Source: an uncultured Methylophaga sp.
Lineage (GTDB): Bacteria > Pseudomonadota > Gammaproteobacteria > GCF-002020875
Length of the DNA: 59,198 nt
Assembly (NCBI GenBank): GCA_937877715.1
Contig: CALEHW010000027.1
Location: 1-59,198 of the forward strand
Reading direction: 5' to 3'
In this document: piece after piece, positions 2,912-53,309 of the stretch
Layout: each line of letters begins with the position of its first letter
Numbering within the stretch: the stretch's first letter is position 1
Position numbers and translations under genes: made by a program
The notes under the pieces: generated by a model
Told to the model about the DNA's origin: nothing
Database searches by the model: none
Seen by the model: the letters and a program-made list of their open reading frames with translations, nothing else

Positions 2912-4350
2912 TGACCACAAAAACCAAATCAAGGACACCCTCCAGAAAAAAAACAGGGGGGCCGTCCACTACCAGCCAGAGAGACGAGGCAAAGAGCTTT
3001 GTCTCTCAGTTTCGTGGCACTGCGCCATATATTAACGCACACCGCGGCAAGACATTCATAATCACCTTTAGTGGGGAGATGGTTATGCATGGCGATGACT
3101 CGGCCTGGGAGCAGCGACTGCATGACCTGATCAATGATATTGCCCTGCTCAATAGCTTGGGAATACGGCTGGTACTGGTTCACGGTGCCCGCCCCCAGAT
3201 TGAACAGCGGCTACAGGAGTTCGATATAGAGAGCGAGATCATCAATGGACTGAGGGTCACCAGTGATGAGGCCCTGCTTTGTGCCAAAGAGGCGGTTGGA
3301 AATATCCGCATTGACCTGGAGGGCAAGCTCTCCACGGGGCTCCCAAACTCCCCCATGTCCGGGGCCGATATACGGGTTGCCTCCGGAAACTTCGTTACCG
3401 CGCGCCCACTGGGGGTTCGTGAGGGGGTCGACTATCAGCATACTGGAGAGGTGCGACGCATCGATGCTGCCGCCATTGAGCAACTGCTTGATAGGGGCTT
3501 CATTGTGCTGCTCTCTCCGGTCGGCACCTCTCCCACCGGAGAGATCTTCAACCTCAGCAGTGAGGATGTTGCCACCTCGGCATCCATCCAGCTGGATGCA
3601 GACAAGATGCTCTCCCTGATTGATGAACCGGGGCTACTGGACAGCAATAACAGATTGATACGGGAGCTGACCCCGGATGAGGCGGAGGCTATTCTCTCAT
3701 CATCCAGAGAACTGCCAGAGCAGACTGCACGCAATCTCATCAGTGCAATCCACGCCTGCCGTGAGGGGCTTCCACGCGCGCACATCATCAACGGGGAGGA
3801 GAGTGGTGCCCTGCTGCAGGAGCTATTCACCCGTGACGGTGTCGGCACCATGGTGAGCTCCGATCTCTACGAGGATATTCGCCCTGCCACCATTGAGGAT
3901 GTGGGCGGTATCATCGAGCTGATTCACCCCCTGGAGGAGGATGGGATTCTAGTCCCCCGCTCCCGTGAACTGCTGGAGATCGAGATCGGCCACTATACCG
4001 TGATGGAGAGGGACGGCACTATAATCGGGGTGGTGGCAATCTATCCCGACCGGAGACAGAAGATGGCTGAGGTGGCAAGCCTGGCCATCCATCCGGAGTA
4101 TCAGAATAGGGGGTGCGGCGAACTACTACTGGAACATCTGGGAAGACAGTTGATGAGTGGGGATTGGGGTGAGATTGAGAGACTGTTTGTGCTCTCAACG
4201 CGCGCCTCACACTGGTTCCAGGAGCAGGGGTATCTACCGGCGAAGCTGGCTGATCTGCCGATAAAACGACAGGCACTCTACAATTACAAGAGAAAATCCA
4301 AGGTATTCATCAGGGTACTGAACAACACCAACGCAAGCGGGCAGAGATGA
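2911..4350 (+). CDS. argA: N-acetylglutamate synthase (amino-acid N-acetyltransferase)
   Basis: The 479-residue product has the two domains of bacterial ArgA: an amino-acid-kinase fold (about 35–300; PYINAHRGKTFIITFSGE, LVHGARPQIEQRL) and a C-terminal GNAT acetyltransferase domain (about 330–465; VASLAIHPEYQNRGCGELLLEHL, the acetyl-CoA loop). It acetylates glutamate, the first step of arginine synthesis, and the family is normally feedback-inhibited by arginine. The only conventional start in frame is GTG 2911; a TGA lies at 2869–2871. About 30 polar, lysine- and arginine-rich residues precede the conserved domain, more than in E. coli ArgA (443 residues). The stop overlaps the rnt start by four bases (ATGA), so the two genes should be cotranslated. 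Confidence 0.93.
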   Translation: MTTKTKSRTPSRKKTGGPSTTSQRDEAKSFVSQFRGTAPYINAHRGKTFIITFSGEMVMHGDDSAWEQRLHDLINDIALLNSLGIRLVLVHGARPQIEQRLQEFDIESEIINGLRVTSDEALLCAKEAVGNIRIDLEGKLSTGLPNSPMSGADIRVASGNFVTARPLGVREGVDYQHTGEVRRIDAAAIEQLLDRGFIVLLSPVGTSPTGEIFNLSSEDVATSASIQLDADKMLSLIDEPGLLDSNNRLIRELTPDEAEAILSSSRELPEQTARNLISAIHACREGLPRAHIINGEESGALLQELFTRDGVGTMVSSDLYEDIRPATIEDVGGIIELIHPLEEDGILVPRSRELLEIEIGHYTVMERDGTIIGVVAIYPDRRQKMAEVASLAIHPEYQNRGCGELLLEHLGRQLMSGDWGEIERLFVLSTRASHWFQEQGYLPAKLADLPIKRQALYNYKRKSKVFIRVLNNTNASGQR

Positions 4351-49410: not shown

Positions 49411-50386
49411 CCCCGCGCTCCGCCTCATAGGCGCGAACAATCTTCTGTACCAGCGGGTGACGTACCACATCGAAGGACTGGAAAAAGGTGAAGCCGATCT
49501 CATCCACATCGCGCAGCACCTCAATCACATGACGTAACCCAGACTGTCTCGTATTGGGCAGATCCACCTGGGTCACATCCCCGGTGACAACCGCGGTAGA
49601 GTCAAAACCAATTCTGGTAAGAAACATCTTCATCTGCTCTACCGTTGTATTCTGTGCCTCATCCAGAATGATGAAGGCATCATTCAGGGTGCGGCCTCGC
49701 ATAAAGGCGAGTGGTGCAACCTCGATCACATTACGCTCAATCAGCTTGGTAACCCGCTCAAATCCCAACATCTCATAGAGTGCGTCATAGAGTGGGCGCA
49801 GATAGGGATCAATCTTCTCCGCCATATCTCCAGGCAGAAACCCCAGTTTCTCTCCCGCCTCTACTGCAGGCCGCACCAGAACCAGTCGCTTTACCTCCTC
49901 CCGCTGCAGGGCATCAACCGCACTGGCAACGGCCAGATAGCTCTTGCCAGTACCTGCTGGCCCAATCCCGAAGATCAGATCATGAGCGACCATCTGGTGC
50001 ATATAACGGCGCTGACGTGGGCCCCGTGGGCGGATAACCCGATGGCGGGTATTGACCACAATCTCGGGGACTGAGCGCTCGGCCTCCGCCTCCTCCTCTT
50101 CCTGGGCGCGCCGATCCAGCTGAACCTCCTGTAGCAACAGATGGATACCATCCGCTGTCACCTCTCCATCCCGGGTCTCTCGGTAGAGTGATTCCAGCAC
50201 CTGAACTGCAAGCTCTACCGGTTGATGCTCTCCAACAAACCTGAACTCGCCACCACGGTAGTTGATCTCAACCCCCAGGCGACGCTCAATCTGGCGCAGA
50301 TGGCTGTCCGCCTCTCCACAGAGTGCAGAGAGACGCTGTAAATTCAGAGGATCCAGGGTGACCTCATGTACGACCGGCGTTGTCAC
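49403..50386 (-). CDS. ybeZ: PhoH-like ATPase (YbeZ)
   Basis: The 327-residue protein starts at GTG 50386. It has an N-terminal KH-like region (about 10–95), then a PhoH P-loop ATPase domain: [36 protein letters not shown], Walker [22 protein letters not shown] and [12 protein letters not shown]. It works with YbeY in ribosome metabolism and is coupled to miaB upstream (GTGA) and ybeY downstream. Confidence 0.95.
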
Positions 50387-51741
50387 CCAGACCTTGAGGC
50401 AAGAGCTGCTGCCTCCTCCACCCGCTCACCACGCAGGGAGTTTGGCAGCGCCTCGGTAATCAGTAGATTAACAAATTCTCCAGTCAGGATGAGTGAGCCA
50501 TCAAAATTGACCACCCGGTTATTCTCGGTACGCCCCGCAACCTGGGTACCTGGCCCCTTGCGTGCCGGCCCCTCAACCAGAACCCGCTGCACCGTCCCGA
50601 CCATCTCCCGGCTAATCTCCATCGCAATCTGGTTGAGCCGCTCCTGCAACCGCGCCAACCGCTGCTGTTTTTCCTCATGCGGCACATCATCAGGCAGGTC
50701 TGATGCTGGGGTGCCGGGGCGCGGGCTGTAGATGAAGCTGAATGACCTATCAAAACGCAACTCAGCAATCAGCTCCATGGTAGCCATGAAATCCTCCTCC
50801 GTCTCTCCGGGAAAACCGACAATAAAGTCCGACGACAGGCTCAGTTTTGGTCGTACCCTGCGTAGCTGACGAATGATCGAACGGTACTCAAGGGTTGTGT
50901 GACCACGCTTCATCATTGCCAGAATATGGTTGGAGCCACTCTGTACCGGCAGATGGAGATGGCTGACCAATTCAGGCACCTCTGCATAGCTCTCAATCAG
51001 TGCCGCTGTCATCTCTATCGGATGCGAGGTGGTATAACGAATTCGTCCCAGCCCATTCATTGCAGAGAGGTAGTGGACTAGGGTTGCGAGGTCGGCAATC
51101 TCCCCATCCTCCATCTCGCCACGGTAGGCGTTTACATTCTGCCCAAGCAGGGTGATCTCCCGCACCCCCTGTGCAAGTAGTCCCGCCACCTCCGCCAGAA
51201 CATCATCAAATGGACGGCTCACCTCCTCACCACGAGTATAGGGGACCACACAGAAGGTACAGTACTTGCTGCACCCCTCCATGATGCTGACGTAGGCAGT
51301 AACCCCATTGGCCTGTGGCTCTGGCAGTTGATCAAATTTCTCGATCTCTGGAAAGGAGACATCCACCACTGCCTGCTGTTTCTCCACGGCGGAGTCAACC
51401 ATCTCTGGGAGACGGTGGAGGGTCTGGGGGCCAAATATCAAATCAACAAATGGGGCTCGCTTGCGAATTGCCTCCCCCTCCTGGCTGGCCACGCAACCCC
51501 CAACCCCAATCAACACCCCGGGTCGGCTCTGCTTCAGTGGCCTCCACTGCCCCAACTGGGAAAATACCTTCTCCTGCGCCTTCTCACGCACCGAACAGGT
51601 GTTGAGCAATAGCAGATCGGCCTCCTCAGGGTTTTCAGTGCGCAGATAACCGTGAGAACTCTCCAGCAACTCCGCCATCCGTGCGGAGTCGTAGTCATTC
51701 ATCTGGCAACCAAAGGTTTTGATCAGAACTTTTTTGGGCAT
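50383..51741 (-). CDS. miaB: tRNA-2-methylthio-N6-dimethylallyladenosine synthase
   Basis: The 452-residue radical-SAM methylthiotransferase has the N-terminal cluster-binding domain ([34 protein letters not shown]), the radical-SAM CxxxCxxC motif ([18 protein letters not shown]) and a C-terminal TRAM domain. It adds the 2-methylthio group to A37 of tRNAs reading UNN codons. It is the first gene of the miaB–ybeZ–ybeY–corC–lnt run; positions 51742–52010 upstream hold a palindromic element and the amtB terminator. Confidence 0.97.
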
Positions 51742-51764
51742 TAAACTGTATATAGCCTATTCAA

Positions 51765-51933
51765 TAATAGTCGAAATCTCTTTTTGACGAATTGGCTGCG
51801 CCCTGTTTTCGGGCTGTTTTTCAGAGTGGGCCTGTCGGTGTTTGAGCGCAGCGAGTTTTGACAGGCTCTGAAAAATGGTCTGAAAACAGGGGGGAAAGCA
51901 GCCTCTGAGGAGAGAAAGAGATTTCGACTATTA
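51765..51933. mobile_element. 169-bp palindromic MITE-like element
   Basis: Perfect 19-bp terminal inverted repeats (51765–51783 and 51915–51933) begin and end with TA, as expected if a TA target was duplicated (IS630/mariner style). The inside is also palindromic: the segment from CCCTGTTTTC (about 51801) to GCCTGTC pairs with GACAGGCTCTGAAAAA through GAAAACAGGG, so nearly the whole element could fold into one long hairpin. It encodes no protein. It lies between the divergent end of miaB and the amtB terminator. I saw no second copy in this window and do not know which transposase would move it. Confidence 0.75.
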
Positions 51934-51951
51934 CGTATGCAATTACCTATT

Positions 51952-51986
51952 AAGAAAAAAGGGATGGTGCAATTTTACACCATCCC
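51952..51986 (-). terminator. Rho-independent terminator of the glnK–amtB operon
   Basis: On the minus strand the amtB stop is followed within about 25 bases by a perfect 9-bp stem (GGGATGGTG/CACCATCCC, arms 51978–51986 and 51961–51969), an 8-nt loop, and then TTTTTT CTT. This is a textbook intrinsic terminator. Confidence 0.9.
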
Positions 51987-52010
51987 AGTTTTGGTAGTAG
52001 AAAAAGAGGA

Positions 52011-53309
52011 TCAAAGATCGTAACCACGCTCCTCATGAGAGGCGATATCCAGCCCCTCTGTCTCTTCCTCTGCCGAGACCCTAAGACCACCAGTCATCAT
52101 CCCAACCAGTTTCAGGATGATCCAGGTTGCAACTGCTGTATAGAGTGCAGTAGCAACCACACCAACAAACTGAACCCAAACCTGTCCACCAATTGAGTCA
52201 CCAGCTGCACCAACCTCAGCAAGACCCTGACCACTGAAGATCCCCAGTTGATTGGAGGCAAAAACGGCAGCCATCAAGGTGCCGATAATGCCGCCAACTC
52301 CGTGAACCGGGAAGACATCGAGGGAGTCGTCAATCTTCAATACCCGCTTGATCACCAGTACCGCATTGAAGCAGACCGCTCCAGCAACAATGCCGATCAC
52401 CAGTGCGCCTGCTGGACCGACAAAACCGGATGCCGGGGTGATGGTGCCGAGACCAGCGATTATTCCTGTAACCGTGCCTAGAGCTGTTGGTTTGCCAAAC
52501 TTTTTCCACTCATAAAACATCCAGGTGATGGCACCCGCGGCAGCCGCGATATGGGTTGCCAGCATCGCCATTGCCGCATCACCATTGGCGGCCAGTGCAC
52601 TTCCACCATTGAAGCCAAACCAGCCAACCCAGAGCATTCCCGCACCCATCACCGTCATGGTCATGTTGTGCGGGGGCATTGCAGTGGTGGGAAAGCCCTT
52701 GCGTGGGCCGAGCACTATAGCCGCTACCAGTGCAGCAACACCAGCCGTGATGTGGACTACGGTACCGCCGGCAAAATCGAGCAGCCCCATCTCACCCAAC
52801 CAGCCACCACCCCAGACCCAGTGGGTTATCGGGGAGTAGACTACCAATAGCCAGATTGCAGAGAAGAGCAGTACTGCTGAGAACTTCATGCGCTCCGCAT
52901 ATCCACCAATAATCAGTGCCGGGGTGATGACTGCAAAGGTCATTTGGAAGAGAGCAAACAGAGACTCGGGAATATCACCACTCAAAGTCTCCTCCTGAAC
53001 CCCTGCAAACATGACATTGGAGAGCCCACCAATAAAGCCGTTACCCTCAGAGAATGCAATACTATAGCCAATCACTAGCCAGAGGATGGAGGAGACGCCG
53101 GCAATGGCAAAGCACTGCATCAGGATGGACAACACATTTCTGGAGCAGACCAGGCCGCCATAGAAGAGCGCCAATCCCGGCAGGGTCATGAATAGTACCA
53201 GTGCTGTAGAGGTCAATATCCAGGAAGTATTGCCGCCATCAAGTGCAGCCCCTTCAGCAAATGCAAGCCCCGGAAAAAGGGCAAATATCACTATAACTGT
53301 TTTCAACAT
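52011..53309 (-). CDS. amtB: Ammonium transporter AmtB
   Basis: The 432-residue precursor starts with a signal peptide (TVIVIFALFPGLAFA) and has eleven membrane segments. The twin pore histidines are visible in GTVVHITAGVAAL and FPVHGVGGIIGTL; GLALFYGGLV is the conserved first-helix motif. It conducts ammonium into the cell and is blocked by GlnK when nitrogen is plentiful. The ATG follows AGGTAAAAAA, 50 bases after glnK, and a clean terminator lies downstream. Confidence 0.96.
   Translation of the reverse strand: MLKTVIVIFALFPGLAFAEGAALDGGNTSWILTSTALVLFMTLPGLALFYGGLVCSRNVLSILMQCFAIAGVSSILWLVIGYSIAFSEGNGFIGGLSNVMFAGVQEETLSGDIPESLFALFQMTFAVITPALIIGGYAERMKFSAVLLFSAIWLLVVYSPITHWVWGGGWLGEMGLLDFAGGTVVHITAGVAALVAAIVLGPRKGFPTTAMPPHNMTMTVMGAGMLWVGWFGFNGGSALAANGDAAMAMLATHIAAAAGAITWMFYEWKKFGKPTALGTVTGIIAGLGTITPASGFVGPAGALVIGIVAGAVCFNAVLVIKRVLKIDDSLDVFPVHGVGGIIGTLMAAVFASNQLGIFSGQGLAEVGAAGDSIGGQVWVQFVGVVATALYTAVATWIILKLVGMMTGGLRVSAEEETEGLDIASHEERGYDL

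Follow-up and report, generated by a model that had tools for sequence, protein, structure and literature searches.

The palindrome at positions 51765-51933 of the window (the whole 59,198-nt stretch of DNA from an uncultured Methylophaga sp. that was analyzed) is best read as an old member of a non-autonomous hairpin repeat family that is dispersed between genes; this copy probably entered the miaB leader, and an IS66-type element is the likeliest carrier here. We put the probability of this reading at roughly 0.75. The repeat unit is an asymmetric hairpin in which the loop TGTYTGAGCGNAGCGAGTT sits on strongly covarying stems: the loop is conserved, and the stems change on both sides together. 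It forms a multi-copy family in its own genome and in two sister species. As judged from covariance model matches, its core is shared by many gammaproteobacterial genera, and it is absent from Rfam 15. Its membership in a class-wide hairpin repeat is of greater interest than its standing as a single MITE would be. Whereas bacterial repeat families are mostly recognized by their ends, this one keeps its loop while its stems drift complementarily, and a core shared by many genera provides a concrete starting point in the search for the protein that reads it.

The palindrome in the window and its copies in the genus

The preliminary description of this DNA reported a full palindrome with perfect 19-nt inverted arms. 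The arms were confirmed (Table 1), and inside the palindrome a second pair (51801-51826 and 51866-51891) with a complementarity of 85% was found. As single-stranded DNA, a 189-nt stretch folded at -48.4 kcal/mol, compared with -20.7 ± 3.1 kcal/mol for 200 shuffled sequences, and was thus 8.8 SD better; none of the 200 shuffles folded as well. The palindrome is real and strongly folding, but it is not full, since pairing is missing in a loop of approximately 20 nt and in two asymmetric stretches, a left one (GACGAATT) and a right one (CCTCTGAGGAGA). Furthermore, the TA thought to flank the arms belongs to them, as the dinucleotide with which they begin and end, and is not a flanking duplication.

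Table 1. Features of the window at and around the palindrome
Feature	Positions	Strand	Basis or remark
Probable whole element, ~198 bp, degenerate GTAAC-type ends	51752..51949	+	MAFFT alignment with GTAACTACTCA-ended copies; box-to-ATG distance
Left outer arm, 19 nt, copy-specific	51765..51783	+	
Core hairpin matching covariance models R1 and R2	51777..51921	+	R1, 149.3 bits (the window copy is a member of this model); R2, 100.5 bits
Terminal-loop motif TGTTTGAGCGCAGCGAGTT (class-wide form TGTYTGAGCGNAGCGAGTT)	51839..51857	+	
Right outer arm, 19 nt, fully complementary to the left one	51915..51933	+	
miaB (452 aa; name from the preliminary description)	50383..51741	-	Inferred end of the element lies 10 nt from the start codon
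amtB, ammonium transporter	52011..53309	-	NCBIfam TIGR00836, E 1e-135
Hairpin GGGATGGTGTAAAATTGCACCATCCC plus T run, contains the TAAAAT box	51961..51986	-	

A DNA search of the genome to which the window belongs (G000) yielded the window copy, eight further places and a short partial one (self matches aside). With the covariance model R1, which was built from nine places in this genome and has a core of 144 model positions, we detected 12 full copies and one partial copy in G000, four copies in G004 (the closest relative) and two in G003, but none in G001, G002 and G005, 150 candidates per genome being scored in each case. Nine of the 12 G000 copies match R1 by construction; the other three and all six of G003 and G004 lie outside the model.

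The genes beside the copies are ordinary (thrC/hom, tpiA/glmM, glmM/folP, yebC/nadA, bioF/bioB, ffh/rpsP, clpB, ribF, radC and others), and the copies occur in both orientations relative to them. Mechanically called open reading frames overlap some copies, and for one flanking protein (L148:10283-10726) the NCBIfam search gave no match. At the bioB-bioF site, copies are present in G000 (L149 13675-13820) and in G003 (L157 2948-3095), but the two face opposite ways with respect to the genes; inversion and independent insertion are about equally compatible with this (alignment scores 99.5 and 96.0).

The yebC-nadA site of G004 is clearly empty, and the two genes nearly touch there. Because this empty site lacks a palindrome, we rejected the idea that the core had been inserted into a pre-existing terminator hairpin, which would now be the outer stem. 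The tpiA-glmM site of G004 retains a left end and half a core together with a foreign GGGGTCAGG-type hairpin, and we read this remnant as a decayed repeat copy (L191) with a GGGGTCAGGTCTTTAC palindrome inserted in it. A recognizable element was absent at ffh-rpsP in G004, G001, G002 and G003 and at the site of copy C46 in G004 and G001, the exact junctions not being clean at either site. Thus, the term MITE-like is appropriate insofar as the feature is a dispersed, non-coding repeat with 12 full copies and at least one clearly empty site, but its assignment to the IS630/mariner type is not.

Loop and stems within and beyond the genus

In alignment A1, 90.8% of the pair cells were standard pairs, and both sides had changed in 29 of the 49 pairs, compared with 14.4 ± 2.5 after shuffling (0 of 500 shuffles as high). 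Alignment A2, which comprises 26 matches outside the genus and was fitted to the structure of R1, revealed covariation in 47 of the 49 pairs, with 362 double-changed cells versus 112 ± 9 in shuffled data. The outer arms vary from copy to copy and are complementary within each copy, and none of 20000 permutations reached the within-copy match summed over the 18 copies. When each 36-nt arm was ranked against its possible partners, ties included, the own arm came first in 15 of the 18 copies, the exceptions being C36a (whose best partner was its ortholog), C66 and C46; addition of six core bases raised this to 17 of 18.

Double compensatory changes were also found between G000 and G004 orthologs: five in the pair C36a/G4C19 and six in C59_54/G4C25, where hand arithmetic from the single-site rate predicts about two and about one double changes of any kind, respectively. 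The window pair C27/G4C16 had none. The possibility that stems are unique to each copy, as in a barcode-like system, was rejected: in genome G116, the copies form two sub-families and are alike inside each, and the stems are therefore not randomized per copy.

Among 369 sampled genomes of the class, 25 (including G000 and G004) had R1 matches; the class label, Gammaproteobacteria, rests on named MiaB relatives such as Sedimenticola. A second model, R2, was built from 26 matches outside the window's genus. It is not fully independent of R1, since the members of A2 were found with R1. R2 gave one match in the window, at 51777-51920 (100.5 bits; E 1.9e-30), and matches in 25 of 398 sampled Pseudomonadota genomes, a phylum sample whose split among classes is unstated; one of the 25 was G000, and all were Gammaproteobacteria. 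Class-wide copy counts are lower bounds, eight candidates per genome having been scored. Judged by eye, many folds of the relatives have on their 3' side a mini-hairpin that is CCC-GNA-GGG-like. Outside the genus (122 matches in 24 genomes, at most eight scored per genome), 20 of the 26 neighboring pairs no more than 400 bp apart were arranged minus-then-plus.

The Rfam search of the window yielded only SIB_RNA, below the gathering score and outside the element, and that of 16 relatives yielded no repeat family. An unrelated SAH riboswitch, the one Rfam match in these relatives, adjoins a hairpin copy at L273 1749-1823, in a gammaproteobacterium. The plasmid search with the window gave no match, and with the hairpin pair of a relative it gave short matches in 12 records, none of which covered 80% of the query; the phage search gave no match. 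In viral contigs, the loop motif was present in 87 stretches, and many of the 80 examined were not hairpins of the repeat family, showing that the motif alone is not diagnostic. In literature text searches for the motifs of the repeat, the papers listed were all unrelated by title.

These data would be compatible with a tentative and broader idea, which is possible although the odds are against it: one ancient hairpin element of the whole class, without a name in the sources searched, that would be defined by a fixed loop of approximately 19 nt on freely changing stems. Some protein would read this loop in the extruded single strand or the cruciform, and the same core would be packaged into different carriers in each lineage, with GTAAC ends here and head-to-head pairs elsewhere.

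The miaB leader, the element ends and the candidate carrier

Five of the six genomes of the genus, among them the relatives G002, G003 and G005 (L141, L140 and L139), have a TAAAAT box upstream of miaB with a pyrimidine tract after it. The distance from TAAAAT to the miaB ATG is 39 nt in G005 and G003 and 37 nt in G002, but 236 nt in the window and 237 nt in G004. The leader excess in the window is thus 197-199 nt, matching the 198 nt of 51752-51949. Since the two lengths agree, a copy of ~198 bp was probably inserted downstream of the TAAAAT box and ahead of the miaB start codon, and the window element probably extends to about 51752-51949. In G001, amtB adjoins miaB across a 36-nt gap that contains neither box nor element. 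The miaB site offers a natural before/after comparison for a long hairpin placed behind a promoter-like box and ahead of a start codon. We call the box only promoter-like, because the scan of 51650-52060 gave no sigma-70-like promoter. This result, together with the location of the box upstream of the element, weakens the suggestion that the element carries the miaB promoter.

The hairpin at 51961-51986 had been assigned to amtB as its terminator. It does scan as a minus-strand terminator, but three relatives that have no amtB at this place carry the hairpin or its TAAAAT box immediately before miaB, and it is absent in G001, where amtB adjoins miaB. Sequence comparison thus suggests that the hairpin may belong to miaB.

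Between G000 and G004 the element is 95% identical, while the identity of miaB is 79% over the whole gene and 43% at fourfold-degenerate sites. The plateau of high identity, 51660-52139, includes the ends of both amtB and miaB. Because the plateau continues into the two genes, we did not take the 95% identity to prove purifying selection; exchange between lineages explains the plateau as well as constraint does. The preliminary description named uniqueness together with conservation in place among relatives as what would speak for a fixed regulatory structure. The sequence is not unique, and its conservation in place in G004 falls inside this same stretch. Two further stretches of 90-100% identity lie inside miaB and amtB (51120-51299 and 52680-52739), most of the surroundings being 60-90% identical.

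Ends resembling GTAACTACTCACCC were detected 25-28 nt from the core at both ends of copy C59_62 and at one end of C61, G4C19 and C36c (p < 0.01). Copy C59_43 had both ends with p below 0.01, at 26 and 21 nt from the core, and G4C9 had a GTAAC-type end on one side at a different offset. The ends of the window copy were no better than shuffles when compared with the GTAAC consensus (p about 0.5 at either end). GGTAA is nevertheless present at the expected offset of 26 nt, and together with the length argument at miaB it supports reading a GTAAC-type end here. An 8-bp duplication was not visible at the window copy or at C59_62, the best-preserved one.

The motif GTAACTAYTCA occurs 43 times in G001 and 34 times in G005, compared with 5 and 7 occurrences of the reversed control. 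Short elements with GTAACTATTCA ends in these two genomes (L240-L251) have variable interiors that differ from the repeat core, which suggests that GTAAC ends and hairpin core may be separate modules. By eye, five of the 11 pairs listed for the GTAACTAYTCA MITEs had exact 8-bp flank repeats. A C-terminal fragment of an IS66 transposase (PF03050; E 6.4e-12) was detected at a contig end of G001 (L259 1-340; G001:C69), and its stop codon overlaps TGAATAGTTAC, a terminal repeat of the GTAAC type. Beside the C46 copy of G000 (L152 near 3195-3240; G000:C46:145394-145439), a palindrome, GGTAACTATTCATCATTCCCGCGCAGGCGGGAATGATGAATAGTTACC, has the same end type and a different interior. Mobilization of the IS66 type is likely in this genus, because the GTAACTACTCA ends of several copies are of the type used by the 8-bp-duplicating MITEs and because of the IS66 transposase fragment, and it may also have produced the window copy. 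No PF03050 match was present in G000, and no transposase carrying the core was found: R1 had no match around the two PF03050 loci, the three IS-end loci or eight Y1 loci.

We propose that a transposase acting in trans moves the copies and would recognize the folded unit or its ends; the GTAACTACTCA-type ends of several copies make IS66-type transposition its likeliest form in the genus. After insertion, the arms could be kept matched if the folded form were selected or if one arm served as the repair template for the other. The ~198-bp copy would have entered between the promoter-like box and the miaB ATG before the split of G000 and G004 and would by now form a long hairpin in the miaB leader transcript, where, speculatively, it might affect mRNA processing or translation of miaB.

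Alternative explanations and comparison with known systems

The first proposal for the palindrome was an IS630/mariner-type MITE with 19-bp terminal repeats and a TA target duplication, which would account for perfect arms that begin and end with TA. However, in the copy alignment these TA-ended outer arms are private to the window copy and its G004 ortholog and absent from every other copy. Ends are shared only between orthologs and within the GTAAC subset, recognizable ends elsewhere are of the GTAACTACTCA type, and a single-TA empty site was not demonstrable, the empty miaB site not being alignable base by base. We consider the label wrong and largely refuted, and such an origin very improbable. 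A fixed, non-moving regulatory structure of miaB, such as a leader or attenuator RNA, would agree with the position of the element between the TAAAAT box and the ATG and with its retention at the same place in G004, at an identity far above that of the miaB fourfold sites. It is nevertheless unlikely, given the paralogous copies beside unrelated genes, the miaB genes of G001, G002, G003 and G005 that lack the element, the absence of compensatory double changes in the window pair and the plateau over both gene ends, which recombination explains equally well.

Spread of a long REP/BIME relative by Y1 (RAYT) transposases acting on a single-stranded DNA hairpin would be in line with the minus/plus arrangement of the neighboring pairs outside the genus, which is like that of REP dimers, and with five PF01797 matches in G000. 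Three of these matches (L366 C36, L369 C36 and L371 C59) have identical scores and lengths and 157-aa frames and are probably one IS200-type element. The core was found in none of the eight Y1 loci (matches plus up to 1.5 kb on each side; G000, G003 and G004), and the units are 110-200 bp long, in comparison to 20-40 bp for REP units in an excerpt of PMC3733652; we hold this origin to be unlikely. A structured RNA family (sRNA or cis-RNA) that is copied by duplication and kept for its RNA function is quite unlikely, too. The strong covariation and the conserved loop would fit it, as would the class-wide alignment, in which G-U outnumbers A-C (45 to 19; p 0.0016; one loop-closing column left out), but that alignment was fitted to an RNA model, which favors G-U. 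In the pairs supported from both strands in 18 copies, G-T and A-C mismatches numbered 32 and 23. Moreover, the copies show no fixed orientation with respect to genes and have no Rfam match.

Like MITEs, including ERIC and Correia elements (the latter two compared by description), the repeat is short, non-coding, dispersed, intergenic and hairpin-forming and has an empty site in a relative; unlike in MITEs, its ends vary between copies, and the constant part is the central loop. According to a part of PMC10969869, MITE-like elements alter mRNA stability and promoters. With IS66-family MITEs the repeat shares the GTAACTACTCA ends of several copies in its own genome, and MITEs of the genus with GTAACTATTCA ends show duplications of 8 bp; a table excerpted from PMC3281130 contains two IS66 elements with 8 in its last size column. 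It departs from them in the degenerate ends of the window copy, the 8-bp duplication not seen and a G000 genome without PF03050. REP/BIME palindromes (GTAG/CGTC), as far as they are described in the excerpted source, are similar in their head-to-head dimers, covarying stems and intergenic position, but differ from this longer repeat, which has a conserved loop of ~20 nt and no adjacent Y1 gene at any of the eight loci. Finally, the Haemophilus intergenic dyad sequences, which are said in an excerpt of PMC4144887 to aid gene-cluster mobility and were compared by description only, are likewise intergenic dyads.
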